NCBI RefSeq assembly: GCF_005222485.1
Contig: NZ_CP029078.1
Location: 3,841,501 to 3,905,500, forward strand
DNA length: 64,000 bases
Direction: 5' to 3'
Source of the DNA: Streptomyces griseoviridis
Lineage (GTDB): Bacteria; Actinomycetota; Actinomycetes; Streptomycetales; Streptomycetaceae
Shown: positions 16,797 to 34,062 of the stretch, in pieces
How positions within the stretch are numbered: position 1 is the stretch's first letter
Layout of the letters: each line of letters opens with the position of its first letter
Notes under the pieces: model-generated
Databases searched by the model: none
What the model saw: the letters and a program-made list of their open reading frames with translations, nothing else
What the model was told of the DNA's origin: nothing
Program-made: the position numbers and the translations under genes

Positions 16797-17261
16797 ATGT
16801 TTCGTCTGGAGACAGAAGTCGACAAATCCCGGCGCGATCTTCTCCGTTCGCGGCTCCTGGAGAGCAACACGGCGGCGTCACCGGTACTGAGAGCGCTGCG
16901 CGGAACCCCGGCCGAGCGCGAACGGCCGCTGCACGTTTGGGCGTTGGACGAGCGGGGGGCGATGGCGGGCGGCCTGGTCGGCCACACCTGGGCGTCCTGG
17001 CTGCACGTGACGTTCCTGTGGGTGGACGACCTGCACCGCGGCGCGGGCCTCGGCGGCCTGCTGCTGACGGAGGCGGAACGCCTCGCGACGACCGAGCGCG
17101 GCTGCACGGCGGCCCGACTGGAGACCTGGGACTTCCAGGCGCCGGACTTCTACCGCAAGAAGGGGTACGAGGTGGTGTGCGTGATCCCCGACTATCCGCC
17201 GGGCGTCACGGAGTACACGCTGACGAAGCGGCTGGGACCGCAGCCGGACGGTCGACGCTAG
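16797..17261 (+). CDS. GNAT acetyltransferase
   Basis: About 154 residues with a GNAT fold: a central strand LHVTFLWVDDLHRGAGLGGLLLTEAE holding the acetyl-CoA-binding R/Q-x-x-G-x-G/A pattern (HRGAGLGG), and the later FYRKKGYEVV segment. The substrate is unknown. ATG 16797 is preceded by GGTGAGG at close spacing; ATG 16785 is an alternative. Its stop overlaps the stop of the convergent ATP-binding gene by four bases (CTAG at 17258-17261). Confidence 0.85.
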   Translation: MFRLETEVDKSRRDLLRSRLLESNTAASPVLRALRGTPAERERPLHVWALDERGAMAGGLVGHTWASWLHVTFLWVDDLHRGAGLGGLLLTEAERLATTERGCTAARLETWDFQAPDFYRKKGYEVVCVIPDYPPGVTEYTLTKRLGPQPDGRR

Positions 17262-17965
17262 CGGGCCGCCCCGAGGAGACCCGGGACGAGGTCGAGTTCC
17301 GCCCAGACGGTCAGCCCGCGCCGGGTCAGCCGGGTGCCCCACCGATCGGCGAGCGCGTGGGTGATCAGCAGTCCCCGCCCCCGCTCCGCGCTGCCGCGGG
17401 CCGGCACGGGCCGGACCGGGGGCGCCTGCCCGCCCTCGTCGGTCACGCTGACGGAGGCCGTGGACACGGTGAAGGCGCAGCCCACCGCGATCGTGTGACT
17501 GACGGTGTGCTCCAGGGCGTTGGCGACGAGTTCGCCGGCGATCGACTCCAGGTCGTCCACCAGCGCCGGATCGAGCCCGCGCGCACGGGCCGCGTCCCTG
17601 ACATGCCGGCGGGCGGCGCGGGCGGAGGCGAGATCGGCACCGGACACGGCGAGCGCGTCACCGGCACGCGGGCCGGGGGCGGCGAGACGGTCGCCCCGGC
17701 AGCGGGCGATGACGAGGACGTCGGCGAGGGCGTCGCACAACTGCCCCACCCAGTGCAGCGGTTCATCACCCTCCTCCACCCGAGCCTTCTGGACCCTGCT
17801 CAGCAACCGCTGTGCCAGATCGAGTTGGACGGCCTCGATCTGGTCGGCCATGCGGGAGGCGGGGCCATCGGGGGTGTCCGACACGAGCAGGGCGGGGTGG
17901 CGGTGGGGGCCGGACGGGGGGAGGTGGCGGTTGAGGCGGGGATCTCCGGTGGCGTCGTTCTGCAC
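17258..17965 (-). CDS. ATP-binding regulatory protein (HATPase_c, RsbW-like)
   Basis: 235-residue soluble protein whose C-terminal half (about 115-225) is an anti-sigma-factor-type HATPase fold: N-box ELVANALEH, G1 box VTDEGGQAPP and G2 box GRGLLITHAL. The N-terminal half is variable and helical. Such proteins are regularly encoded beside a DUF5753 helix-turn-helix gene and a DUF397 gene in Streptomyces, as here, and are thought to be part of developmental or antibiotic regulatory circuits (whiJ- and abaA-like loci). GTG 17965 has AGGAG upstream. It is divergent from the HTH gene across a short operator-bearing region. Confidence 0.85.
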   Translation of the reverse strand: MQNDATGDPRLNRHLPPSGPHRHPALLVSDTPDGPASRMADQIEAVQLDLAQRLLSRVQKARVEEGDEPLHWVGQLCDALADVLVIARCRGDRLAAPGPRAGDALAVSGADLASARAARRHVRDAARARGLDPALVDDLESIAGELVANALEHTVSHTIAVGCAFTVSTASVSVTDEGGQAPPVRPVPARGSAERGRGLLITHALADRWGTRLTRRGLTVWAELDLVPGLLGAAR

Positions 17966-18021
17966 GGCAACTCCTGTGTCGGGGGATGAGAGTGAGGGTC
18001 ATCTCCCCCGCTAAGATTCCA

Positions 18022-18039
18022 GCGAGAAAATTGTCTCGC
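18022..18039. promoter_or_regulatory. Palindrome in the HATPase/HTH divergent promoter
   Basis: GCGAGA-AAATTG-TCTCGC is a perfect six-base inverted repeat in a locally A+T-rich patch between the divergent genes. It is the likely binding site of the DUF5753-type regulator encoded at 18129. Confidence 0.6.
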
Positions 18040-18128
18040 AAGGAAAGTCACTCAAAAGGATGTCCCCTGCGACATCAGCCGCCAGGGTGGCCGTCCATCG
18101 ATACGCTCCGCGCCAGGAGGTGGGAAAC

Positions 18129-18995
18129 ATGACCGACGCCCAACCCAACCTGCATCGAAGGCGCCTGGGCCTGGAGCTCCGCTCGCTGCGCAAGGCCACC
18201 GGGATGAATCTCGCCGAGGCGGCCGAGCGCCTGTGCCTGTCCGGCGCTTCGGCCCTGAGCAAGATCGAGAACGGCAAGCAACGGGTGCCCGGCATCGCCC
18301 TCGCGGGCTTCTTCGAGGTCTACGGCCTCCAGAAGAAGGACCGCGTCGAGAAGATCCGCAAGCTGGCGTCGCTGGCGAACTCGGGCAGGCGGGCGAACCT
18401 GTTCGATCAGTACCGGCAGTCCGTTCGCGACCCCTTCGCCGAGTACCTGCACCTGGAGGAACTGGCGTCCAAGTGCGAGACGTTCGCGTGGGTGATCCCC
18501 GGCCTGCTCCAGACCCCGGACTACGCCCGCGCGATCGTGGAACGCAGCCGTAAGTGGCACACCGGCCGGGAGATCGACAACTTCGTCGAACTACGCATGG
18601 CCAGACAGGAGGCCCTGCTGCGAGAGCAACCACTTCATCTGTGGTGCGTGCTCGACGAGTCGGCGCTCCTCCGGGAGGTCGGCGGAAGACAGGTGATGAA
18701 GGCCCAGCTTGAGCACCTGCTCCAGGTGTCGGAGGAGCACAAGCACGTGGCACTCCAGATACTGGCCTTCGCGCACGGGGCTCACGCCGGGATCGACGGC
18801 CCCTTCCACCTGCTGCACTTTCCCGTCGGACCGCCCGTGGTCGTGGTCGAGCCGATGACAACTTCGTTGTACCTGGAGGAAGATAGCGACATCGGGCGCT
18901 ACGAGACGGCGTTCAGCCACCTCCGCGGCGAAGCCCTCGACGCGGAAGCCTCTCGGCGCCACATCGACGACTTGATCAAGGACCGCTACGCATGA
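18129..18995 (+). CDS. XRE HTH regulator with DUF5753 domain (WhiJ-like)
   Basis: 288-residue regulator. The N-terminal XRE helix-turn-helix (about 12-65) contains LRSLRKATGMNLAEAAERL and LSKIENGKQRVPG. The C-terminal DUF5753 domain (about 95-280) shows the typical YLHLEELASKCETFAWVIPGLLQTPDYAR and RMARQEALLRE segments. AGGAGGTGGG precedes ATG 18129. Its stop overlaps the DUF397 gene start (ATGA), the standard arrangement for this regulator/partner pair. In whiJ-type loci the small partner modulates the repressor. The target here could be its own divergent promoter (palindrome 18022-18039). Confidence 0.92.
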   Translation: MTDAQPNLHRRRLGLELRSLRKATGMNLAEAAERLCLSGASALSKIENGKQRVPGIALAGFFEVYGLQKKDRVEKIRKLASLANSGRRANLFDQYRQSVRDPFAEYLHLEELASKCETFAWVIPGLLQTPDYARAIVERSRKWHTGREIDNFVELRMARQEALLREQPLHLWCVLDESALLREVGGRQVMKAQLEHLLQVSEEHKHVALQILAFAHGAHAGIDGPFHLLHFPVGPPVVVVEPMTTSLYLEEDSDIGRYETAFSHLRGEALDAEASRRHIDDLIKDRYA

Positions 18996-19216
18996 AGAAG
19001 AAGATCGACCTCACCGAGGCCATATGGGTCAAGAGCGACCTCAGCAACGGCGGGGACAACTGCCTCGAGGTCGCCTTCGTCGACGGTGTGGTCGCTCTCC
19101 GCGACTCGAACGACGTCGGCGACCCCGACGCCAAGATCCTGATCATCTCCGAGGACGACTACCGCGCGTTCACCGGCGGAGTCGCGAAGGGCCAGCGGGA
19201 TCTGCTCCTGCCGTGA
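18992..19216 (+). CDS. DUF397 protein
   Basis: 74-residue protein of the DUF397 family, with WVKSDLSNGGDNCLEVA, the VALRDSND segment, and a C-terminal ISEDDYRAFTGGV. These small acidic proteins are encoded next to DUF5753 regulators and are believed to act with them as an antagonist or co-regulator. The start overlaps the upstream stop codon, so translation is coupled. It is the last gene of the trio and is followed by a stem-loop. Confidence 0.93.
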   Translation: MKKKIDLTEAIWVKSDLSNGGDNCLEVAFVDGVVALRDSNDVGDPDAKILIISEDDYRAFTGGVAKGQRDLLLP

Positions 19217-19222
19217 CGAGCG

Positions 19223-19246
19223 GGGCTGAGGAAGGCGACTCAGCCC
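19223..19246 (+). terminator. Stem-loop after the DUF397 gene
   Basis: Eight-base inverted repeat GGGCTGAG (19223-19230) and CTCAGCCC (19239-19246) with an eight-base loop. It separates the regulatory trio from the RiPP island. Confidence 0.6.
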
Positions 19247-19332
19247 GCGCGGATCCGTTCCACAGGGTCGTCGACGCCGTCGGCTCCGGCGTGCTTCTTG
19301 AATGAGCGACCGCATCGCGGCGGAGGCGAAAC

Positions 19333-20841
19333 ATGAAGACGGTGCACGCGGGACTGGCGGCGTACGAGACGCGAGTGGGCGAGGCAGCTCGGACCCTGCT
19401 GCACAACCAGGGGTACGACGGTGGTTGGGGCCTCACCCTGACCTCGGTGTCCTCGATCGTCAACACCAGCGAGGTGCTGCCGATCCTGCGGGCCGCAGGC
19501 GTTGCCGGACAGCCGGTCCGGCAGGCGCTCGACTTCCTCACCGGCGCGATCCCTGAGCACTGCCGGCCCCGTCACAAGGGCGGACGTGGCGAACACACCC
19601 GGTTCATCGCCTTCGGTCTGGCCGGGCTGCTGTCCCACCCCCGGTTCTTTCACCACGCGGGCGTCGCGGAGGCCACAGCCTGGTGCGTCGACTGGCTGGA
19701 GGACCACCGGGTCGACCACGGATGGCCCGAGGTTCTCGGCCTCGACGACACCTCTCTGCACCAGACTGCCCTCGCGGTGCACGGGCTCGCCGAACTCAGG
19801 TGTGTACTGCACGACCTCGGCCCTGGGCTCCTCCTGCCCGGCGGGGTGGATACCAGCACCCTGCTGGAACGCGTCGAGCCGCTGATCGATCACGGCGTGC
19901 ACGGATTGCTCTACCATCGCCGCCCCAGCGGGGCCTGGGGCTGGCGGACCTACATCGACACCGACCCCAGCCCGAGCAAGACCTCGCTGTGCCTGCTCGC
20001 GCTGTCGGCCGTCGCCTCCGGTACCGGGCCCGGCGGCGAACCCGCCTACCGCGACGATCCGCGGGAGGTGGGCGGCGTGCACGGTCCGGTGCAACGCAGG
20101 CAGCTGTCCGAGGTGGTCGTCGAGGCCGGCAAGTGGCTACTGCACAATCACCACCGCTGGGAGACCTTCGTCGAAGACGACAAGGACGTGCAGGGCACGG
20201 CCTGGGAACACATGGCGTACGCACTGTGCTGCCAGGCCGCCGTCCGGGCCGGGGCCGGTCCACGTGACCCCCGGCTGGCCAAGGCGTGGCGGTTGATGAA
20301 CGAGCTGTGGGATCCAGAAGCCAGGCTCTGGAACGAGCCGGGCGCCTCAGGCCGGCGCGCCACCGTCCGGGCCGCGTACTACACGGTCTCGGCTTATGAG
20401 GAAGCGGCTCGGCACCTGGCTCGGACAAGCCTCACCGACAACGGCTCGGGAGACGTGCGTGAGCCGTCGGCCGACAGGGTCATCGAGCGGGTCGAACTCG
20501 GCCCCGGTCGCACGGTCCGCGTCAGCGCGACCGGCAGTGAGACCGCCGTGACCTGCGAGTTGACAGAGCGTCTGTTCGACCTGGTGAAGGTTGTCTTCGA
20601 CGCCTCCGCGGTCGGGCTGTCGACCGAGCGGATCGCGGCAGCCCTCTACGTCGCGCCGTCCTCGGTGCCGAAGTACGTGCAGCGGCTGAACCAGGCGGTA
20701 TCGGCAGCCCTTGGCGGCGCTCCGGCACGCCTGCTCCTGGCTGTGACGGTCGACGGGACCGGAGGGTATCGCCTTGCGGGACGAGGCCCTGCGGGGGACG
20801 CGGGACGGCTACGGCCAGGTGCGGGCAGACGAAGTCGATGA
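19333..20841 (+). CDS. Terpene-cyclase-like toroid fused to a winged helix
   Basis: 502-residue protein with an unusual architecture. Residues 10-385 resemble the alpha/alpha toroid of squalene/prenyl cyclases (DGGWG at 29-33, repeated W/G-rich turns such as GAWGWRTYID), with VLGLDDTS at 134-141 where class II cyclases have DxDDT; the first Asp is missing, so cyclase activity is doubtful. Residues 408-481 look like an OmpR-type winged helix (LSTERIAAALYVAPSSVPKY, ending GTGGYRL). It may be a sensor-regulator that binds a hydrophobic ligand rather than an enzyme. CGGAGG precedes ATG 19333. It opens the RiPP island and could act on the TGTCA sites at 21495-21548; both points are inference. Confidence 0.6.
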   Translation: MKTVHAGLAAYETRVGEAARTLLHNQGYDGGWGLTLTSVSSIVNTSEVLPILRAAGVAGQPVRQALDFLTGAIPEHCRPRHKGGRGEHTRFIAFGLAGLLSHPRFFHHAGVAEATAWCVDWLEDHRVDHGWPEVLGLDDTSLHQTALAVHGLAELRCVLHDLGPGLLLPGGVDTSTLLERVEPLIDHGVHGLLYHRRPSGAWGWRTYIDTDPSPSKTSLCLLALSAVASGTGPGGEPAYRDDPREVGGVHGPVQRRQLSEVVVEAGKWLLHNHHRWETFVEDDKDVQGTAWEHMAYALCCQAAVRAGAGPRDPRLAKAWRLMNELWDPEARLWNEPGASGRRATVRAAYYTVSAYEEAARHLARTSLTDNGSGDVREPSADRVIERVELGPGRTVRVSATGSETAVTCELTERLFDLVKVVFDASAVGLSTERIAAALYVAPSSVPKYVQRLNQAVSAALGGAPARLLLAVTVDGTGGYRLAGRGPAGDAGRLRPGAGRRSR

Positions 20842-20909
20842 CGGTGGCCGGCTGCCGCAATGGCGGCCCGCCGCATCGCGGGACGAGGCCGGCCCCGTGG
20901 CGCAGCGGG

Positions 20910-21440
20910 CTACGGCCGGGTGCGTTCCTCGGCCACCGGGTAGTTCAGCAGGGCGAATCGGGCCAGTGAGCGCACCTGGTCGAAGGTCTTGAGGCTGTCG
21001 AGGTCGTCGAGGCTGAACCAGTCCGCTCCGTGGACCTCCGCGCGTTCGGCCTCGACTGCCTGCTCGCGGGTGCCCGGCTGTCGCTTGACGTAGAAGAACT
21101 GGACCAGCGCCGGAGTGGGGAACCCCTCGCGCTCGATGTCCACATAGAACGGCACCGGCTCAGGGGTCGCGTTGTGGTCGGCGGGGTGGACGGGCGGCTG
21201 GCTGGAGATCGCCTCGACCACCAGCCCCGTCTCCTCCTTGAACTCGCGCACCGCGGTGCCGGCGAAGGACTCGCCGGGCTCGATGTGGCCACCGGGCGGG
21301 ACCCACTTGTCGAAGCGGTTGTGGTGCACGAGGAGGACTCTGCCGTCCTCGACGAGGTAGCCCGAGCAGCAGTACACCAGGCCGACGTCACGGGAGGTCC
21401 GGCCGTCGTGAATCAGAATCGAGCGAGGCACGCCCGTCAC
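20910..21440 (-). CDS. Nudix hydrolase
   Basis: 176-residue Nudix-fold protein with an intact Nudix box, GHIEPGESFAGTAVREFKEE followed by TGL (consensus GX5EX7REUXEEXGU). Such enzymes cleave nucleoside diphosphates linked to another moiety; the substrate cannot be read from the sequence. It starts at GTG 21440; a downstream GTG at 21431 is possible. It is divergent from the radical SAM gene and sits inside the RiPP island, so it may serve the pathway or be a passenger. Confidence 0.88.
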   Translation of the reverse strand: MTGVPRSILIHDGRTSRDVGLVYCCSGYLVEDGRVLLVHHNRFDKWVPPGGHIEPGESFAGTAVREFKEETGLVVEAISSQPPVHPADHNATPEPVPFYVDIEREGFPTPALVQFFYVKRQPGTREQAVEAERAEVHGADWFSLDDLDSLKTFDQVRSLARFALLNYPVAEERTRP

Positions 21441-21494
21441 GATAGCTCACGGGGGTGTGCCCGAACTCCGGTGCGGGGCACGCGCCTTCGGTGC

Positions 21495-21548
21495 GATGTC
21501 AGCGCCGCGAGAATGACATGTCAGCAGTGATGACAACGCGATGTCATC
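21495..21548. promoter_or_regulatory. Cluster of TGTCA/TGACA operator-like sites
   Basis: Within 54 bp there is GATGTCA (21495-21501), the perfect 10-bp palindrome TGACATGTCA (21514-21523), and the inverted repeat GATGACA-N6-TGTCATC (21529-21548). The cluster is in the Nudix/radical-SAM intergenic region, about 100 bp before the maturase ATG. It looks like the binding region of a pathway-specific regulator. Confidence 0.6.
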
Positions 21549-21645
21549 GCGTGCCGGGAGCAGCCGGACCCATGGTGGTGGCATCCCGAACCGCGGACCT
21601 CCGGCACGCGCCAGGGATTCCCTGTCCGACGTGGAGAGGACTCCG

Positions 21646-22797
21646 ATGCGCTCTCGCCCGTCCTCGTGGCGTGCCCGGTACCACCAACGGTTCGCGGCCC
21701 CGCAGACCGTGGTGGTGCAGCCCACCACCTGGTGCAATCTGGACTGCCGGTACTGCTACCTGCCCTTTCGCAGGCTCAGGCACCAGATGTCCCCGGAGGT
21801 GGCCGAGGCCCTCGCGCAGGCCGTGGGCCGGCTCGACGACAGTGGCCATCCGATCGGCATCGTCTGGCACGGCGGGGAGCCGCTCGCCGTCGGCCGGCAG
21901 CACTTCCGGTCCCTGCTGGCACCGTTCGAGACGCTGCGCCGCGCGGGCCGTGTCCACCACTACGTGCAGACCAACGCGACGTTGATCACCGACACGTGGT
22001 GCGAGCTACTGGCCAGCTATGACGTCCGCGTGGGGGTGAGCATCGACGGGCCGGCCGCGTTGAACGCCGAGCGTGTCGGCCTTCGCGGCAAGCCTGCCTT
22101 CGACCGCATCCTCCGCGGCATCACCACTCTGCGTGAGTGCGGCGTCCCGTTCTCGGTCATCTCGGTGGTCGGCACGCTCGGCATCTCCATGCCGGAGGAG
22201 CTGATGGAGTTCCTGGACTCCCTGGGCGCTCGCTCGGTGGGCTTCAACATCGAGGAGATCGAAGGGGTCAACACCGATCGGGAGCCGCCCAACGCGCTTC
22301 AGGCCCAGGACTTCTGGCTTGGTGTCCTGACCTGGTCCGGTCAACACCCCGACGCACCGCAGGTGGGCGCGGTGGCGCGCCTCGCCGAGTACCTCCGTCT
22401 GATCAGATCCGGGCAGGGCGCCGAGTGGTCCGGGCGCCTCCTGGACCCGATCCCGACCGTCTCGTGGAAGGGGGACGTGGTCCTGCTCTCCCCGGAACTC
22501 GCAGACACGGCGGCGCCCGAGTACGGCGACTTCTCGGCAGGCAACATCCTCGAGCAGCCACTGGTCGAGATCCTCCGCGACGCGCACCGGCTCCGCTACG
22601 TACGCGACTTCCTCACCGGCCTGGACCGCTGCGAGGCCGCGTGCGAGTTCTTCGGCTTCTGCCGTGGAGCGCAGGCCGCCAACCGCTACTTCGAGAACGG
22701 CAGCCTCAAGTCCACCGAGACCAACTACTGCCGGGTCTCCCGGCAAGCGCTGGTCAAGGCCCTGTCCACACTCGCAGAGAAGGAGTCGGCCGTATGA
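21646..22797 (+). CDS. Radical SAM/SPASM RiPP maturase
   Basis: 383-residue radical SAM enzyme. The [4Fe-4S] motif CNLDCRYC gives C30, C34 and C37, followed by the HGGEPL segment of SPASM peptide maturases and, at the C-terminus, four cysteines (about 329, 333, 339, 362) for auxiliary cluster(s). This class modifies ribosomal peptides by carbon-centred radical chemistry, often forging aromatic-to-side-chain crosslinks (cyclophanes). ATG 21646 follows GGAGAGGA. Its stop overlaps the start of the precursor peptide gene (ATGA), so enzyme and substrate are translationally coupled. From memory, actinobacterial families called amcB/amcA or triceptide maturases have a similar setting; the exact subfamily needs a profile search. 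Confidence 0.88.
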   Translation: MRSRPSSWRARYHQRFAAPQTVVVQPTTWCNLDCRYCYLPFRRLRHQMSPEVAEALAQAVGRLDDSGHPIGIVWHGGEPLAVGRQHFRSLLAPFETLRRAGRVHHYVQTNATLITDTWCELLASYDVRVGVSIDGPAALNAERVGLRGKPAFDRILRGITTLRECGVPFSVISVVGTLGISMPEELMEFLDSLGARSVGFNIEEIEGVNTDREPPNALQAQDFWLGVLTWSGQHPDAPQVGAVARLAEYLRLIRSGQGAEWSGRLLDPIPTVSWKGDVVLLSPELADTAAPEYGDFSAGNILEQPLVEILRDAHRLRYVRDFLTGLDRCEAACEFFGFCRGAQAANRYFENGSLKSTETNYCRVSRQALVKALSTLAEKESAV

Positions 22798-22982
22798 CGC
22801 TTCTGGAGGGTCTCGCCGCATCCGACGCCCCCGTCGTGATGAAGTTGGTGGGCACGCACGGCGCTCCGGCCCCGTCGATCGCTGGAACACCATGGGACAA
22901 CCGGCCCACGTGGGACAACTGGAACAAGAACCCGGCCCCCTTCGACAACCGTCCGACCTGGGACAACTGGAACAAGAGGTAG
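22794..22982 (+). CDS. Trp-rich RiPP precursor with two 12-residue modules
   Basis: 62-residue peptide, too short to be called easily. Residues 1-30 form a leader (MTLLEGLAASDAP...). The C-terminal core has two copies of a 12-residue module, WDNRPTWDNWNK (34-45) and FDNRPTWDNWNK (50-61), joined by NPAP and ending in Arg. Six aromatic-x-x motifs follow the three-residue cyclophane pattern: W34-D-N36, W40-D-N42, W43-N-K45, F50-D-N52, W56-D-N58, W59-N-K61. AGGAG (22781-22785) lies eight bases upstream and the ATG overlaps the maturase stop. The module repeat is also evident at DNA level with silent changes, which indicates selection on the peptide. The product could be a multi-cyclophane peptide; proteolytic cleavage points are unknown and no protease gene is seen nearby. 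Confidence 0.88.
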   Translation: MTLLEGLAASDAPVVMKLVGTHGAPAPSIAGTPWDNRPTWDNWNKNPAPFDNRPTWDNWNKR

Positions 22983-23021
22983 CCGCTCGGTGCTGCCGGC
23001 CCCGAGCGGAGCGGCAGCACC
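22983..23021 (+). promoter_or_regulatory. Overlapping hairpins / possible pseudoknot after the precursor gene
   Basis: Directly after the precursor stop, CCGCTCGG (22983-22990) can pair with CCGAGCGG (23002-23009), while GGTGCTGCC (22989-22997) can pair with GGCAGCACC (23013-23021). The two stems interlock as an H-type pseudoknot or exclude one another. A 3' structure of this kind would stabilise the precursor message or reduce read-through into the pentapeptide-repeat gene. Confidence 0.5.
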
Positions 23022-23053
23022 CGGCGTCGCGTCTCCGCGCTGAAAGGCTCTTG

Positions 23054-23743
23054 ATGGACACCCGCACGATCCGTCGGACCAGCGTCACCCTCCCCGCCCT
23101 GGACGAACCGGGCCTCTCCCTCTCCGACGTCACCTCGCTGGAGGGCGGACGAGGACGGCTCGCGGAGTTCCACTACGCCGACGGTGATCTGCGCGACCTC
23201 GATCTCGCCGACACGCACCTGCTCGACGGTCGGATCGCCGGCCTGAAGGCCCAGCGCACCCGCCTGGAGAGGCTCCGCGTCGATTCCGTGGAGTTCATCC
23301 GCTGCGACCTGGCCTCCCCGCAGTGGGCCGACAGCAGGATCTCCCGGTCGGTCTTCCGCGACTGCAAGCTCATGGGCGCCGCCTTCGAGGACGTCACGCT
23401 CGACAACGTGCTGTTCGAGAACTGCAAGCTCGACTACAGCGCCCTCACCCGTGTCCGGGCCACCGGACCCGTGATCTTCTCCGCATGCTCGCTGCGCGAG
23501 ACGACCTTCGCCGCCGCAGACCTGTCCAACACTCTGATCGACGACTGCGATCTACGGCTGACGGAGTTCGACGGCGGGAAGTACCGCGGCCTGGACCTGC
23601 GGGGCAACACCCTCTCCCAGCTCCGCGGCCTCTCCTCGCTCAGGCAGGTCGTCATCGACCGGGCCCAGACGCTCCAACTGGCCGAGGCCCTCGCCGCCGA
23701 GCTGGACATCACCTTCGGCGAAGACCTCGCCGTCCACGCGTAG
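23054..23743 (+). CDS. Pentapeptide-repeat protein
   Basis: 229-residue protein dominated by pentapeptide repeats (A(D/N)LXX type) from about residue 40 to 195, for example DLRDLDLADTHLLDG, FRDCKLMGAAFEDVTLDNVLF and CDLRLTEFDGG. Such repeats fold into a right-handed quadrilateral helix. In MfpA, Qnr, McbG and AlbG this shape mimics DNA and protects gyrase from inhibitors. Located 71 bp after the precursor gene, it is a candidate self-protection factor, which would hint at a nucleic-acid-enzyme target for the peptide. That role is inference; many pentapeptide proteins have other or unknown roles. ATG 23054 is preceded by GAAAGG. Confidence 0.88.
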   Translation: MDTRTIRRTSVTLPALDEPGLSLSDVTSLEGGRGRLAEFHYADGDLRDLDLADTHLLDGRIAGLKAQRTRLERLRVDSVEFIRCDLASPQWADSRISRSVFRDCKLMGAAFEDVTLDNVLFENCKLDYSALTRVRATGPVIFSACSLRETTFAAADLSNTLIDDCDLRLTEFDGGKYRGLDLRGNTLSQLRGLSSLRQVVIDRAQTLQLAEALAAELDITFGEDLAVHA

Positions 23744-23811
23744 GCAGCCCGGCTCGTCGCCCCGCGTTCGCGGCGTTCGTCACCGGTCTGCCTCCCGCGC
23801 GCGGCCGGGCC

Positions 23812-23837
23812 GGGGCGCCGCGGATGGGCGGCGCCCC
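23812..23837. terminator. Terminator between RiPP island and gal operon
   Basis: Perfect 10-bp inverted repeat GGGGCGCCGC (23812-23821) and GCGGCGCCCC (23828-23837) with loop GGATGG. It ends both the pentapeptide-repeat gene and the convergent galK gene. Confidence 0.85.
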
Positions 23838-23841
23838 CCTG

Positions 23842-24996
23842 TCAGGACACCCGCAGCGCCCCCGCCGAAGGCACCGCCTCGAAGACCCGTGGGGTGGTGA
23901 ACCCTGCGGTCGCGAAGGCCGATTCGATGGACTTGGTGAGTGTCTCGACGTCGGACGCCTCGGCCAGGACGATCGCCGAGCCGCCGAAGCCGCCGCCGGT
24001 CATCCGGGCGCCGAGCGCGCCGCCTGCCAGGGCGGTGTCGACGACCAGGTCCAACTCCGGGCAGGAGATGCGGAAGTCGTCGCGGAGCGAGGCGTGGCCC
24101 GCGGTGAGGACCTGGCCGATCGCGCGGGTCTCGCCCGACTCCAGCAGGGCGACGGCGTGTTCGACGCGCTGGTCCTCGGTGACGACGTGCCGCACCAGCC
24201 TGATCACCTCGTCGTCGTCGCCGAGGCGGGCCAGCGCCGCGTCGAGGCCGTCGTAGGGGATGTCGCGCAGCGCGTCCACGCCGAGGAGCGCGGCGCCCTT
24301 CTCGCAGCCGGCCCGGCGCTTGCCGTACTCGCCGTCGCTGTGGGCGTGTTTGACCTGGGTGTCGACGACCAGCAGCCGCATGCCCTCGGCGGCCAGGTCG
24401 AGCGGGATCTGCTTCTGGGAGAGGTCCCGGGTGTCGAGGAACAGGGCGTGGCCGCGCTCGCAGCAGGCGGACGCCGTCTGGTCCATGATGCCGGTGGGCG
24501 CCCCGACGTACACGTTCTCGGCGCGCTGGCACAGGCGGGCCAACTGCCAGCGCTTCAGGCCCAGTTCGAAGAGGTCGTCGAGGGCGAGGGCGATCACCAC
24601 CTCCAGGGCCGCCGACGAGGACAGGCCCGCGCCGGTGGGGACCGTGGACGCCAGGTGGATGTCGGCGCCGGTGACGGCGTGGCCCGCCTCGCGCAGCGCC
24701 CAGACGACGCCCGCCGGGTACGCGGTCCAGCTCCGGTCGGTCTGGGGGGCCAGCGCGTCCAGGCGCAGTTCGGCCACTCCCCCCTCGACGTCCGCCGAGT
24801 GCAGGCGCAGCACGCCGTCGTCGCGGCGGGAGACGGCGGCCGTCGCCACGTGCGGCAGGGCGAACGGCATCACGAAACCGTCGTTGTAGTCGGTGTGTTC
24901 ACCGATCAGGTTGACCCGGCCGGGCGCCGACCAGACCCCCTCGGGCTCGGCTCCGTACAAGTCGACGAAGCCCTGCCTGACCTGCTGTGCCCCCAC
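23842..24996 (-). CDS. galK: Galactokinase
   Basis: 384-residue GHMP kinase phosphorylating galactose in the Leloir pathway. The galactokinase signature GRVNLIGEHTDYN is at about residues 26-38, the GHMP ATP loop PTGAGLSSSAALE near 119-131, and the C-terminal TGGGFGGSAIVL near 340. GTG 24996 shares one base with the galE stop codon (TAGTG), so it is coupled to galE. It is the last gene of galTEK. Confidence 0.97.
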   Translation of the reverse strand: MGAQQVRQGFVDLYGAEPEGVWSAPGRVNLIGEHTDYNDGFVMPFALPHVATAAVSRRDDGVLRLHSADVEGGVAELRLDALAPQTDRSWTAYPAGVVWALREAGHAVTGADIHLASTVPTGAGLSSSAALEVVIALALDDLFELGLKRWQLARLCQRAENVYVGAPTGIMDQTASACCERGHALFLDTRDLSQKQIPLDLAAEGMRLLVVDTQVKHAHSDGEYGKRRAGCEKGAALLGVDALRDIPYDGLDAALARLGDDDEVIRLVRHVVTEDQRVEHAVALLESGETRAIGQVLTAGHASLRDDFRISCPELDLVVDTALAGGALGARMTGGGFGGSAIVLAEASDVETLTKSIESAFATAGFTTPRVFEAVPSAGALRVS

Positions 24997-25964
24997 TAGT
25001 GCTCCTTCGAGATGTGCTGCGCGAACTCCCAGGCGTCCGCGACGATACCCGCGAGGTCCGCGCGGGACGGCTGCCAGCCCAGCTTCTGGCGGGCGGCGTC
25101 GGCGGAGGCGACCAGGACGGCCGGGTCGCCGGCCCGGCGCGGGGCGCTCACCTCGGGGATCGGGTGGCCGGTGACCTGGCGGACCGTCTCGATGACCTCG
25201 CGGACCGAGAAGCCGTTGCCGTTGCCGAGGTTGCAGATCAGGTGCTCGCCGGGGGTGGCGGCCCGGACGGCGAGCAGATGGGCCTCGGCGAGGTCGGCGA
25301 CGTGGATGTAGTCGCGCACGCAGGTGCCGTCGGGCGTCGGGTAGTCGTCGCCGTAGACGGAGATGGCCTCGCGCCTGCCCTGGGCGACCTGGAGGACCAG
25401 CGGGATGAGGTGCGACTCGGGGTCGTGCCGCTCACCGCTGCCGCCGTAGGCGCCCGCCACGTTGAAGTAGCGCAGGGAGACCGCGGCCAGGCCGTGCGCG
25501 GCGGCCTCGCCGCTGATCATGTGGTCGACGGCGAGCTTGGAGGCGCCGTAGGGGTTGGTGGGCTTCGTCGGGGCGCTCTCCACGATCGGGACCTGCTCGG
25601 GCTCGCCGTAGGTGGCGGCCGTGGAGGAGAAGACCAGCCGGCGCACGCCCGCGTCGCGCATCGCGCCGAGCAGCGCCATGGTGCCGCCGACGTTGTTGTC
25701 CCAGTACTTCTCGGGCCGCACGACGGACTCGCCGACCTGGGAGAAGGCGGCGAAGTGCAGGACCGCGTCGTAGGAGGGGTCCAGCCACTTGGCGGCGTCG
25801 CGGATGTCGCCCTCGACGAAGGCGGCGCCCGCCGGTACGCCCTCGCGGAAGCCGGTCGACAGGTTGTCCAGGACGGTGACCTCGTGGCCCGCCTCCAGCA
25901 GATGCCGGGCGACCACGCTGCCCACGTATCCCGCGCCCCCGGTGACCAGGTACTTACCGCTCAT
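24996..25964 (-). CDS. galE: UDP-glucose 4-epimerase
   Basis: 322-residue short-chain-dehydrogenase-type epimerase interconverting UDP-galactose and UDP-glucose. The NAD-binding GGAGYVG is near the N-terminus (about 8-14), and the catalytic pair lies in [10 protein letters not shown] and [11 protein letters not shown] (Tyr-x3-Lys). [17 protein letters not shown] is typical of the family. ATG 25964 overlaps the galT stop (TGATG). It is the middle gene of the gal operon. Confidence 0.97.
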
Positions 25965-27028
25965 CAACTCGCTACCTCTCGCAGTCGCTCGGCCGCGCGC
26001 TCCGGCGGCACGTCGTTGATGAACACGTTCATGCCGGACTCGGAACCCGCGAGGAACTTCAGCTTGCCTGACGTACGGCGGATGGTGAAAAGCTCGAGGT
26101 GGAGCGCGAAGTCGTCCCGGTTGACGGCGGCGCTCCCGTCGAACGCCGCCGCGCCGAACGGGGCCTGGTGCCAGGCCGCGATGTACGGCGTCGGCGGCTC
26201 ACCCTCGCCGAAGATCCGGTCGAAGCGCCTCAAGAGTTCCAGATAGAGCTGGGGGAACTCTGTGCGCGCGCCCTCGTCGAGGGCGAGCAGGTCGGGCACC
26301 CGGCGCTTGGGGTAGAGGTGGACCTCGTAGGGCCAGTGCGCCGCGTACGGCACGAAGGCCACCCAGTGTTCACCCTCCAGGACGACCCGCTCACCGGCGC
26401 GCTCGCGCTCCAGGACGGCGTCGAAGAGGTTCTCCCCGCCGGTCGCCTCCTTGTGGGCCGCGAGTTGGCGCAGCATCAGGGCGGTGCGAGGGGTGGTGAA
26501 GGGGTAGGCGTAGATCTGGCCATGGGGGTGACCCAGGGTCACGCCGATCTCGGCGCCACGGTTCTCGAAGCAGAACACCTGCTCGACGGAGGGAAGATGC
26601 GACAGCTCCGACGTACGGTCCGTCCACGCGTCGAGGACCAGCGCCGCCTGTTCCTCGGTGAGGTCGGCGAAGGACGCCTGGTGGTCGGAGGTGAAGCAGA
26701 CGACCTCGCAGCGCCCGGAGTCCCCGGCCAGTGACGGGAAGCGGTTCTCGAAGACGACGACGTCGTACGCGGAGTCCGGGATCTCGCTCAGCCGCTCCCC
26801 GTTCGAGGGGCAGAGCGGGCACTCGTCGGCCGGGGGGTGGTAGATGCGGCCCTGGCGGTGCGAGGCGATGGCGACCGCGTCCCCGAGGAGCGGGTCGTGG
26901 CGGATCTCGGACGTGGTGACGGTGGGCTCCAGCGGGCGCCGGTCCACGGCGTCCCGCACGGTGTCGTCGCGCAGGTCGTAGTAGATCAGCTCGCGACCGT
27001 CGGCCAGCCGGGTCGAGGTCTTCTTCAC
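25964..27028 (-). CDS. galT: Galactose-1-phosphate uridylyltransferase
   Basis: 354-residue enzyme exchanging UMP between UDP-glucose and galactose-1-phosphate. The active-site HxH is in [14 protein letters not shown]; the zinc-type CPLCPS segment is near residue 70 and SSG-like contacts follow. GTG 27028 has AAGGAG eight bases upstream. It is the first gene of galTEK, transcribed from the A+T-rich region that it shares with the divergent symporter. Confidence 0.97.
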
Positions 27029-30215: not shown

Positions 30216-32105
30216 TCAGCCGGTCGGGCCGAACGCCACCACCAGGTCCTTCTTCAGGGACGAGGTGCTCGCGAACACCCCGGACAGATACAGGTGGCCC
30301 TGGCTGTAGAGGGCCTCCGAGTAGGTGGGCAGCATGCCCGTCTCGGCCTCGCGGGCGGCCGGCGTCGACGGGTTCACCAGCAGCGTCGTCGCCTTGAAGG
30401 AGCCGCCGTCGAGGCTGACGACCTGGCCGCCCTTGTTGTACGGCGGACGCTTGTAGGCGATCAGGTCGGGGCCGTCCATGCGCAGCGGGGTGAGGGTGTA
30501 GCCGTCGCCCGCGTCGGCGCGCTGGCCGGTCTGCCTGCCGGTGCCGAGGTCGAAGGCGACGACCTCGTTGGTCTTGGTGTACTGCCCGGTGCCGTCGTGC
30601 GCCTCGGTCGGGATGTACAGCCGGTCGTTGCCGACGGCGAGGCCCGAGCAGTACTCCAGCTTCGAGATGCCGTCGCAGCGGGCCGCGTAGTCCTTGCCCG
30701 GCGCGGAGATGCGGGTGCGCAGCTTGCCGGTCTTGTTGTCGATGGAGAAGAAGTCCGAGATGCCGCTGCCGTCGCCCGCGCTGTCGCCGACGTCGGCGGC
30801 GACCACCAGCGGGTCGGTGGAGACGACGGCCGCGTACGAGATGCCGGGGGACATCTTGTACTCGGAGTTCACCTTCCCGGTCTTCGGGTCGATGGTCTGG
30901 ATGTGCAGCTGGCGCTCGTCGTAGGAGCCGCACCTGCGGACCGCGACGAGCTTGGCGCCGCCGCCGTACCCGGCGTCGTAGCAGGTGTCGGTGGGCTTCG
31001 GGGCCCAGAGCGGCTTGGCGGTGGAGACGTCGAAGGCGGCGCCGCCGCTGGTGCCGCCGACGGCGACGGTCCGCCCGCTGACGGTGACGTTGTCGAGGCG
31101 GACCTCCTGGTCGGCGTTCTTGACCGTCCTCGTCCACAGCTTCTTGCCTGCGTCGAGGTCGAGGGCGGCGACCTGGGTGCAGCCGTGGGTGGGCTTGGCC
31201 TTGGTCGGCATCGCGGGCTCGTAGACGATCGCGGTCAGGTCGTCGTCGGTCGTGTGCCTGCTGGCGGTGCAGACCGGGCCCGGCAGCTTGATCGACCACA
31301 GCTTGGTTCCGCGGTCGGGGTCGTAGCCGTCGACCGCGGCGACGCCGGTCTTCACGTACGCCTTGTCGGTGAGCCAGGAGCCGTACACCGTGACGGTGGT
31401 GGTGTCCGAGACCTTGGGCGACGGGACCCGGAAGAGGATCTTCCCGGCGGTGTCGGCGGGCACCTTCTCGGTGCCGCCGCCCGCGGTGTCCCCGCCGCCG
31501 TCCTTGTCGTCCTTGCCGCCGGTGCCCGCGGTGGAGCCCGCGGTGTCGTCCTTCTTGCCGTCGCCCCCGCCGGAGGAGGAGTACCAGACGCCGGCGCCGA
31601 CGATCAGGGCGATCGCCGCGACGGCCGCCACGATGATGGCCACCTGCGCGTTGCCCTTCCGCTTGCCGCCGGGCACCCCGCCCGGCGGGGGCGGCGGCCC
31701 GGGGTAGCCGTAGCCGGGCTGCGAGCCGTAGGCGGTGGGCTGCCCGTGGACGGGCGGCTGGCCGTACGGGTTCGGCTGACCGTACGGGTTCGGCTGACCG
31801 TAGGCGGTGGGCTGCCCGTGGACGGGCGGCTGGGCGTACGGGTTCGGCTGCCCGCCGGGGTAGCCGTAGCCGGCCGGCGGCTGCGGCGGCTGCCCGGCCG
31901 GGGGTGCCTGCGGGTAGCCGTAGCCGGGCGGCTGCGGGGGCGGGGTCGGCTGCGGATGGCCGTAGCCGGGCTGCTGGGGCTGCGGCGGCTGCGTGCCGTG
32001 GCCCGGCTGCTGCGGCTGGTCCTGTGGCTGCTGCGGGGGCTCCGGGGGGCCGAATCCGCCCGGCTGCGAGGGCTGGTGGGGCGGTGGGGGTGGCGGCTGG
32101 CTCAT
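30216..32105 (-). CDS. Pro/Gln/Tyr-rich membrane protein with PQQ-like beta-propeller (A)
   Basis: 629-residue protein: a cytoplasmic Pro/Gln/Gly/Tyr-rich N-terminus (about 1-145) with repeats such as NPYGQ and GQPTAYG, one membrane helix (about 152-174, VAIIVAAVAAIALIVGAGVW), a Gly/Asp/Lys linker, and an extracytoplasmic domain (about 200-629) with PQQ-propeller blades (LDAGKKLWT, FDVSTAKPLWAP, IDPKTGKV). Several cysteine pairs suggest disulfides. Function is unknown; propellers of this kind bind ligands or partners in Streptomyces sensor proteins. It is a paralogue of the gene immediately upstream, with 73 bp between them, and they are probably co-transcribed. Confidence 0.85.
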   Translation of the reverse strand: MSQPPPPPPHQPSQPGGFGPPEPPQQPQDQPQQPGHGTQPPQPQQPGYGHPQPTPPPQPPGYGYPQAPPAGQPPQPPAGYGYPGGQPNPYAQPPVHGQPTAYGQPNPYGQPNPYGQPPVHGQPTAYGSQPGYGYPGPPPPPGGVPGGKRKGNAQVAIIVAAVAAIALIVGAGVWYSSSGGGDGKKDDTAGSTAGTGGKDDKDGGGDTAGGGTEKVPADTAGKILFRVPSPKVSDTTTVTVYGSWLTDKAYVKTGVAAVDGYDPDRGTKLWSIKLPGPVCTASRHTTDDDLTAIVYEPAMPTKAKPTHGCTQVAALDLDAGKKLWTRTVKNADQEVRLDNVTVSGRTVAVGGTSGGAAFDVSTAKPLWAPKPTDTCYDAGYGGGAKLVAVRRCGSYDERQLHIQTIDPKTGKVNSEYKMSPGISYAAVVSTDPLVVAADVGDSAGDGSGISDFFSIDNKTGKLRTRISAPGKDYAARCDGISKLEYCSGLAVGNDRLYIPTEAHDGTGQYTKTNEVVAFDLGTGRQTGQRADAGDGYTLTPLRMDGPDLIAYKRPPYNKGGQVVSLDGGSFKATTLLVNPSTPAAREAETGMLPTYSEALYSQGHLYLSGVFASTSSLKKDLVVAFGPTG

Positions 32106-32178: not shown

Positions 32179-34062
32179 TCACTTGCCGTAGGCGAGCATC
32201 AGCTTCCCCTTCCCGGCGGCGCCGCCGGTCAGGCGGGTGGTGGAGAGGTAGAAGCGGCCGTCGACCCAGTCGAAGTCCTTGGAGAAGAAGCCGTTCTCGA
32301 CGCGGGCGGCGGACATCGGGTTCTGGAGCAGCTTCACCGGCGTGTGCGCGGCGGCGCCGGTCGCGATCGACACGACCCGGCCCGCGGAGTCGTACGACGG
32401 CTCGACGTAGGCGATCAGCTTGCCGCCCTCGGCCCTGACCGGCAGCATCGACTCGTCCGCGGGGGACTTGACCCGCCACTTCTCCTTGCCGCTCGCCAGG
32501 CTGACCGCCACGATCTCGTTGGGCCCCGTGGTCGCCCGGGTCGGCAGGTAGAGGGTGTCCGCGTCGGCGGCCACGCCCTTGCAGCCCTGGAGGTCGCGGT
32601 TGAGGATCGCGAGGCCGCACAGCGGGGCGAAGTCCTCCTGGACGGAGACCTGGGAGCGGATGGCGCCGCCGGAGCCGAAGGTGGAGATGTTCCAGGTCTT
32701 CTTGTCCCGGTTGGTGCTGTAGACGACCAGCGGGTCGACCGAGTAGACCCGTGCGACCGTCCACCCCTTGTCGATCCTGTGGGTCCAACGGGCCTTGCCC
32801 GACGCCGGGTCCAGCTCCTGGAGCTCGTCGTGGGCGTTCGACCCGCCGGCGCCGCAGGAGGCGACCGACAGCAGCTTGCCGCCGCCCGCGAACGCGGTCG
32901 GGAAGCAGGCTTCGCCGTACTTGGTCTTGTCGAACAGCTTGGCGCCGCTGTCCACGTCGTAGGCGACCCCGGACTGCGAACGCCCCACCATGAGCGTCCT
33001 GCCCGTGACGGAGAGGCCGACGGTGAGGGTGCTGTCGAACAGCGCGCCCTCGGGGAGCTGGGTCTTCCAGCCCTTCTTGCCGGTGGCGAGGTCGATCTGC
33101 TGGAGCTGGTTGCACTTGGCGCGGTCGCTCGTGCCGCTCTCGTAGGCGACAACGATCTTGCCGTCCGTGGAGGCGTCGGGGGTGGCCGCGCAGATCTTCT
33201 GCGGGAGCGTGATGGTGGCCCAGGCGGGCTCGCCGTCGGCGGTGCCGTAGCCGAAGACCTGCTTGTAGGCCGCCTTCACCGCCGTCTTCCCGGAGATCCA
33301 CATGCCGGGTGCGTCGGCGCCCGAACCGGGCACGGCCGGGGCCTCCTTGTACCAGAGGACCTTCGACTCGCCCGCCCGGCGGCCGGAGTTGAGGTCCTCG
33401 GCGCCGGAACCGCCTTCGCCGTCACGGGAGTCGGCCGACGCCGAGGCGGACGCCGAAGGCGACGCCTTCGCGTCGTCGCTCCGCGCGACGGCCGGCTTCC
33501 CGCCGTCGTCGTCACCGCCGCGGGTCACCGCGAACACACCGGCGCCGATCACGGCGAGCGCGGCCACCACGGCGCCGGCCACGAGCGCGGGCCTGCCCTT
33601 GAAGGGGGTGCGGAAGCCGCCCTGCGGGGCGCCCGGCGCACCCGGGTACGGGGGCTGCTGCGGATACCCGTGGCCGGTCGGGGCGTAGGGCCCCGGCTGC
33701 TGCGGCGCACCGTACGGCCCCGGCTGCTGCGGCCCGTAGCCGCCGCCCGGCTGCCCGTAGGGACCGGGCTGGGCGTACGGACCCGGCTGCGCGTAGGGGC
33801 CGGGCTGGGCGTAAGGGCCCGGCTGGTGGGGCGGCGGGGGTGCCTGGGGGTAGCCGTAGCCGGGCTGCCCCGCGGGCGGGCCCTGCGGGGGCGGCGGAGT
33901 GCCCGGCGGGGACGGCGGCTGCGGCGGCGCCTGGGGCGGCTGGGGTGGTTGCTGCGGTGGCGGCGGCTGCTGCTGCGGTGATTGCTGCGACGGCTGCTGT
34001 GGCGGCTGCTGCGGTGACCGCTCCTGTGGCGCTCCGAAGCCTTCCTGCGGCGGCTGAGTCAT
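32179..34062 (-). CDS. Pro/Gln/Tyr-rich membrane protein with PQQ-like beta-propeller (B)
   Basis: 627-residue paralogue of the neighbouring gene with the same architecture: a Pro/Gln-rich N-terminus (1-155) containing tandem QPGPYA units, a membrane helix near 163-185, an Asp/Ser/Ala-rich linker and a C-terminal propeller (IDLATGKKGWKT, DVDSGAKLFDK, LDPASGKARWTH, VSLASGKEKWRV). Sequence outside the framework motifs is well diverged, so the duplication is old. The repeat tract is encoded by near-identical DNA units at about 33720-33850. ATG 34062 is the only sensible start. Confidence 0.85.
   Translation of the reverse strand: MTQPPQEGFGAPQERSPQQPPQQPSQQSPQQQPPPPQQPPQPPQAPPQPPSPPGTPPPPQGPPAGQPGYGYPQAPPPPHQPGPYAQPGPYAQPGPYAQPGPYGQPGGGYGPQQPGPYGAPQQPGPYAPTGHGYPQQPPYPGAPGAPQGGFRTPFKGRPALVAGAVVAALAVIGAGVFAVTRGGDDDGGKPAVARSDDAKASPSASASASADSRDGEGGSGAEDLNSGRRAGESKVLWYKEAPAVPGSGADAPGMWISGKTAVKAAYKQVFGYGTADGEPAWATITLPQKICAATPDASTDGKIVVAYESGTSDRAKCNQLQQIDLATGKKGWKTQLPEGALFDSTLTVGLSVTGRTLMVGRSQSGVAYDVDSGAKLFDKTKYGEACFPTAFAGGGKLLSVASCGAGGSNAHDELQELDPASGKARWTHRIDKGWTVARVYSVDPLVVYSTNRDKKTWNISTFGSGGAIRSQVSVQEDFAPLCGLAILNRDLQGCKGVAADADTLYLPTRATTGPNEIVAVSLASGKEKWRVKSPADESMLPVRAEGGKLIAYVEPSYDSAGRVVSIATGAAAHTPVKLLQNPMSAARVENGFFSKDFDWVDGRFYLSTTRLTGGAAGKGKLMLAYGK

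Follow-up and report, generated by a model that had tools for sequence, protein, structure and literature searches.

Genes of the AMC locus in Streptomyces griseoviridis

We analyzed a 64,000-nucleotide stretch of the Streptomyces griseoviridis genome (the window; contig NZ_CP029078.1) and focused on three adjacent genes, which encode the radical S-adenosylmethionine (SAM) peptide maturase AmcB, its short precursor peptide AmcA, and a pentapeptide-repeat protein (PRP) (Table 1). An earlier description made without database searches (the sequence-only reading) had interpreted the first two genes as a triceptide-type radical SAM cassette with a six-motif precursor, making a ribosomally synthesized and post-translationally modified peptide (RiPP). 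The PRP gene lies within the span of that description (to 23743), 71 bases past amcA and in the same direction, and was not discussed there. We found it to be the more informative part of the span.

Table 1. Features of the AMC locus and its upstream region, in window coordinates
Feature	Position	Strand	Description	Basis
amcB	21646..22797	+	Cyclophane-forming radical SAM peptide maturase (predicted), 383 aa	NF041718, Pfam Radical_SAM, Cys pattern
amcA	22794..22982	+	62-aa precursor; leader ~residues 1-33, core 34-62 with six aromatic-x-Asn/Lys motifs	NF041721, core constraint
PRP gene	23054..23743	+	Pentapeptide-repeat protein, 229 aa, proposed self-protection factor	PF13599, linkage, AlphaFold2 (AF2) model
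Nudix gene	20910..21440	-	Nudix hydrolase, divergent from amcB, kept in close clade	Pfam NUDIX; 17/30 neighbourhoods
19333 gene	19333..20841	+	502-aa protein, helical (toroid-like) N-terminal part, possible C-terminal winged helix	17/30 neighbourhoods
Proposed operator	21493..21550		GATGACA/TGTCATC half-site cluster, inverted repeats	Between Nudix gene and amcB, conserved in close clade

AmcB and AmcA match a named triceptide family

In the NCBIfam profile search, AmcB passed NF041718 (492.3 bits over residues 18-375, cut-off 425), and AmcA passed NF041721 (73.3 bits over residues 7-61, cut-off 40). Both genes exceed curated cut-offs, and therefore the family is not new. By profile match, the pair belongs to the AmcB/AmcA family already named in NCBIfam, which upholds the cassette type proposed earlier; a new RiPP family was considered and rejected, since these two models cover both genes.

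AmcB carries the motif CxxxCxxC (Cys30/34/37) and C-terminal cysteines at 329/333/339/362. Its second-best family was GrrM/OscB (TIGR04261), to which it is similar, but it stayed under the cut-off of that family (254.1 bits, cut-off 310). The closest solved chain was the radical SAM domain of ChlB (E 1.6e-15). The maturase had been called SPASM-type; this label is based on the resemblance to GrrM/OscB and on the cysteines, and no SPASM model scored in the Pfam search of AmcB. The reported overlap of the two genes by ATGA was found as described, with the TGA at 22795-22797 running over the ATG at 22794. The locus thereby has the arrangement that identifies triceptides, a radical SAM maturase with CxxxCxxC adjoining its own precursor. 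OscB is reported to bond Trp C7 with the beta carbon of an Asn or Asp residue, and Phe C4 with that of Asn (PMC11002830). By analogy, the bond that AmcB makes in AmcA may be of the same kind.

The AmcA translation is MTLLEGLAASDAPVVMKLVGTHGAPAPSIAGTPWDNRPTWDNWNKNPAPFDNRPTWDNWNKR. Direct reading of this frame confirmed the two 12-residue modules joined by NPAP and the six motifs (WDN, WDN, WNK, FDN, WDN, and WNK). We collected 219 relatives at E 0.001 or better and counted triads (aromatic-x-N/K/R/D/S within the last 40 residues) in the best 120 of them. Six triads were present in 83/120, five in 23, seven in 9, and other numbers in 5. Six motifs are thus common but not universal, as relatives often carry a different W-x-K, mostly WAK, in place of the third motif in module 1, or lack that motif. 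Among 13 close orthologues, the ratio of nonsynonymous to synonymous differences (pN/pS) was ~0.15 in the core (0.040/0.272) and ~0.77 in the leader (0.194/0.251), and the precursor is therefore not a chance reading frame. The homologues and the recurrent six triads rule out chance as well. The triads themselves are present in the sequence, and crosslinks from residue i to i+2 are predicted from the family chemistry.

Compared with AmcA/AmcB triceptides elsewhere, this locus shares the curated profile matches, the gene order, and the two-module core of the relatives compared. Nothing essential differs; WNK stands here where module 1 of the relatives most often has WAK. Many relatives also carry an oxygenase gene behind the PRP, which this locus lacks. 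The placement of the precursor after its maturase, noted before, proved general, with this order on the same strand in 41/41 loci compared. Conservation of the precursor frame, on which the sequence-only reading had staked its proposal, holds for the most part. Broken amcA copies occur in L137, L139, and L147, where amcB is also broken or gone. In L019, the start of amcA is out of frame, and only its end lies in one frame, beside a full amcB. No structured RNA reached its gathering score within 17000-26000. No sigma-70-type promoter was found in 21400-23900, and Streptomyces promoters may differ from this type.

The PRP resembles gyrase-protecting proteins

The PRP passed Pfam PF13599 with 69.9 bits (gathering score 38). 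Its AF2 monomer model has a mean predicted local distance difference test (pLDDT) score of 90.8 and a C-terminal helix at 203-216. PRP chains top the list of a fold search with this model, and the protein belongs to the pentapeptide-repeat superfamily with its quadrilateral beta-helix. The nearest solved chains were EfsQnr and MfpA by sequence, and the Clostridium botulinum PRP 6fls and EfsQnr by fold. Its closest counterparts with an established function were EfsQnr, MfpA, and AlbG, all linked to gyrase.

The gyrase-protecting proteins EfsQnr, MfpA, AlbG, and McbG share with this PRP a full-length fold with a C-terminal helix and an acidic protein. The genes of AlbG and McbG also lie beside peptide biosynthesis genes, as this one does; McbG had no solved chain in the results. 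However, identity is at most 26% in the fold alignments listed for gyrase PRPs, and the PRP falls far below the cut-offs for Qnr (NF033086, 35.7 bits, cut-off 240) and MfpA (NF000349, 29.6 bits, cut-off 360). Gyrase binding is a prediction. A further parallel is the speirobactin cluster, where a PRP adjoining peptide biosynthesis genes was read as self-resistance and resistance mutations then pointed to GyrA as the target (PMC12406682). Speirobactin differs in being a nonribosomal peptide of Photorhabdus (PMC12406682). The PRP adjoining AmcA is of the DNA-mimic type and looks like a self-protection protein of the producer.

The PRP is linked to AmcA

To describe this linkage, we read the neighbourhoods of 52 loci, and then scored all loci with the AmcB, AmcA, and PRP profiles. 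A total of 41 distinct loci had AmcB matched over >300 of 383 positions and an AmcA match. This set includes L013 (AmcB from profile position 32), L019 (AmcA end only), L163 (AmcB in two frames), L157 (a weak AmcA match of 23 bits), and L158-L160 and L164 (PRP over ~150 of 228 positions). The PRP gene was located 43-114 bases beyond AmcA in 41/41 loci, on the same strand in 40. Among the class-survey loci, L164 and L166, from one other family, carry the PRP by AmcA on the opposite strand; L166, whose AmcB is broken, does not count among the 41.

In contrast, none of 16 actinobacterial loci with AmcB and without a recognised AmcA had a PRP beside it. These comprise 13 loci from the genus survey, whose weaker AmcB-like matches are left out, and three from the class survey (11/394 genomes with a match at 1e-60); 12/16 exceed the cut-off for AmcB, and the flank covered in seven spans only ~1.5 kb. 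A second AmcB clade (L051, L054, L056, L059, and L061-L065), 40-43% identical to the S. griseoviridis protein, passes the NF041718 cut-off (e.g., L051 with 509.6 bits), yet has neither AmcA nor PRP. In another family, L161 (520.2 bits on NF041718) and L162 likewise have neither. We recognised no precursors for the ~40%-identity clade, and the AmcB label of NF041718 may be too broad.

We also took a census of 392 Streptomyces genomes, using the same set for each search and a PRP threshold of E 1e-20. AmcB was over its cut-off in 27 genomes, AmcA was present in 25 (24 over cut-off), and the PRP in 34. All 25 AmcA genomes lie within the 34 PRP genomes. amcB over cut-off, amcA, and PRP occurred together in 19/392 genomes, and amcB over cut-off and amcA without a PRP in none of the 392. 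Eight genomes had amcB over cut-off but no amcA and no PRP. The link of the PRP to AmcA is tight and mostly one-sided.

Such linkage would also be expected if the PRP were a biosynthetic partner, a scaffold that binds AmcA or AmcB so that the crosslinks form in order. The tie to AmcA-type precursors and the absence from the 16 AmcB loci without AmcA fit this proposal. Copies of the PRP that stand without intact amcB speak against it.

Full-length PRPs persist without intact biosynthetic genes

Among the 15 other PRP genomes of the census, nine have a full-length PRP without intact amcB (G025, G038, G062, G156, G202, G231, G276, G332, and G390), and six have a damaged PRP (G028, G045, G186, G258, G340, and G388). 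The AmcA match is kept in 6/15, with a full-length PRP in G025, G038, and G390 and a damaged one in G028, G045, and G340. Pieces of the oxygenase gene remain in G332 (L141), and no cassette trace was recognised around the remaining five full-length solitary PRPs. Outside this count, amcB is truncated in L020, from a named genome, where amcA and PRP match over their full length.

Solitary copies are nested among linked ones in a tree built from 51 PRP rows. Ten solitary copies need eight label changes, at least four of which are forced by supported branches, with the bootstrap not fully settled. Therefore, solitary PRPs are not one separate clade. Label shuffling gave values as low in 61/500 cases, and this lack of clear clustering of solitary copies fits repeated loss. 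The ratio of nonsynonymous to synonymous substitution rates (dN/dS) was 0.25 to 0.57 for solitary-linked pairs and 0.16 to 0.55 for linked pairs, and 0.34 for the sister solitary pair L143/L144.

A separate observation concerns G121, which carries three PRP copies (L084, L148, and L149), one linked and two solitary. The dN/dS of its two extra solitary copies, L148/L149, was 0.73.

A pure biosynthetic helper leaves these full-length PRPs, found at several places in the tree, unexplained. In L137 and L139, the PRP is full length, whereas only 60 and 72 of 246 positions are left of the oxygenase gene behind it. We therefore consider the scaffold proposal unlikely. Our preferred reading is that the AMC triceptide cassette makes a product harmful to its maker and that the PRP provides self-protection, which we judge somewhat more probable than all else taken together.

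Some observations weigh against or temper this self-protection reading. L021, from a named genome, retains part of amcB but lacks the PRP, contrary to the pattern. L153 (G258) shows the reverse of L137 and L139, in that its oxygenase is full length and its PRP a fragment. Were breaks distributed by gene length only (amcB and amcA 1,341 bases, PRP 690), the chance that all nine spare the PRP would be ~0.024, with relatedness ignored; the asymmetry is therefore suggestive, not overwhelming.

Proposed mode of action

In the self-protection model, AmcB would act on every W/F-x-N or W-x-K triad, bonding the third residue through its beta carbon to the aromatic side chain. Judging from the family chemistry, this could form as many as six small cyclophanes and make the two AmcA modules rigid. 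The leader would then be cut off by an unlinked host protease, and the product would leave the cell, or act, without a dedicated exporter. It would damage its own maker, with the downstream PRP shielding the target. The parallels of McbG, AlbG, and the speirobactin PRP suggest a type II topoisomerase, for example DNA gyrase, as the most likely target. A more specific form of the model, in which AMC triceptides are ribosomal multi-cyclophane type II topoisomerase inhibitors and the PRP is a dedicated immunity protein, left as an orphan gene where production is lost, we put forward tentatively, as possible and short of probable.

The absence of a dedicated protease or transporter, remarked on in the sequence-only reading, extends to the relatives, as none of either recurs in at least five of 30 neighbourhoods (filtered open reading frame set). 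This absence would suit an intracellular toxin with its antidote, used for addiction or phage defence without peptide export. The patchy spread of the complete cassette in the census would suit it too, and solitary PRPs would be in keeping with an antidote. However, the only matches to PADLOC defence models reflect the similarity of radical SAM proteins to viperins (best E 4.5e-11), with mobile elements near the cassette not searched systematically. On that result we rejected a known defence system, and we hold the toxin-antidote explanation to be the least likely of those weighed here.

Upstream and accessory genes

The Nudix gene and the 19333 gene mark the close clade, occurring together upstream in the 17 neighbourhoods of Table 1. 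The 19333 gene was found in 7/392 Streptomyces genomes, all with amcAB. The model of its protein is of low confidence (pLDDT 67). Foldseek returned weak likeness to squalene-hopene cyclase and, at the C-terminal end, to PhoB-type winged helices, with no match at E 0.001 in the fold search. The protein is a possible cassette-associated regulator. The half-site cluster aligns in loci with both genes; in L012, L016, and L017, neither the cluster nor the two genes were found. The 8.96-Mb genome, a single contig, contains one instance of the composite pattern.

A regulator and an operator would have a place if the modified peptide were a signal or regulator whose receptor is tuned by the PRP, as HetL is reported to do for HetR/PatS in heterocyst patterning. 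However, EfsQnr and AlbG outscore HetL both by sequence and by fold, and the upstream gene and the proposed operator are confined as described above. A signalling role thus appears improbable.

The gene of ~241 residues behind the PRP (e.g., L001:12128-12850) matched in 35/63 stretches scanned, with some loci counted twice. Neither Pfam nor NCBIfam returned a match for it, but the profile of its family hits the alpha-ketoglutarate oxygenase MicC over the C-terminal half (E 4.7e-12), which predicts an extra tailoring enzyme that perhaps hydroxylates the AmcA-derived peptide. The S. griseoviridis genome gave no match in a search run without a positive control, and its locus has no room for such a gene between the PRP and the next gene.

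Elsewhere in the window, two adjacent large open reading frames on the minus strand (30216-32105 and 32179-34062) are alike by eye and apparently tandem paralogues, with long Pro/Gln/Tyr/Gly-rich N-terminal stretches.

Implications for the AMC peptide family

Our literature search found no paper uniting "cyclophane" and "pentapeptide repeat", with a 2022 triceptide survey and a review outside its reach. Among the entries listed, no title or opening of an abstract connected AMC triceptides to a PRP, and the papers searched gave no activity or target for the AMC peptide family. Four papers contain both "triceptide" and "gyrase". A PRP with a gyrase-protection fold, often full length beside broken or lost biosynthetic genes, makes the function of AMC peptides testable at the bench and hints at an antibiotic target. 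If the proposal is true, it would assign both function and target to a class of peptides so far known, as far as the literature was searched, by its chemistry. Microcin B17 is a gyrase-directed RiPP, and AMC peptides would be another beside it. A compact, genetically simple scaffold would thereby join the topoisomerase inhibitors, and the PRP would serve as a marker for finding both producers and insensitive strains.
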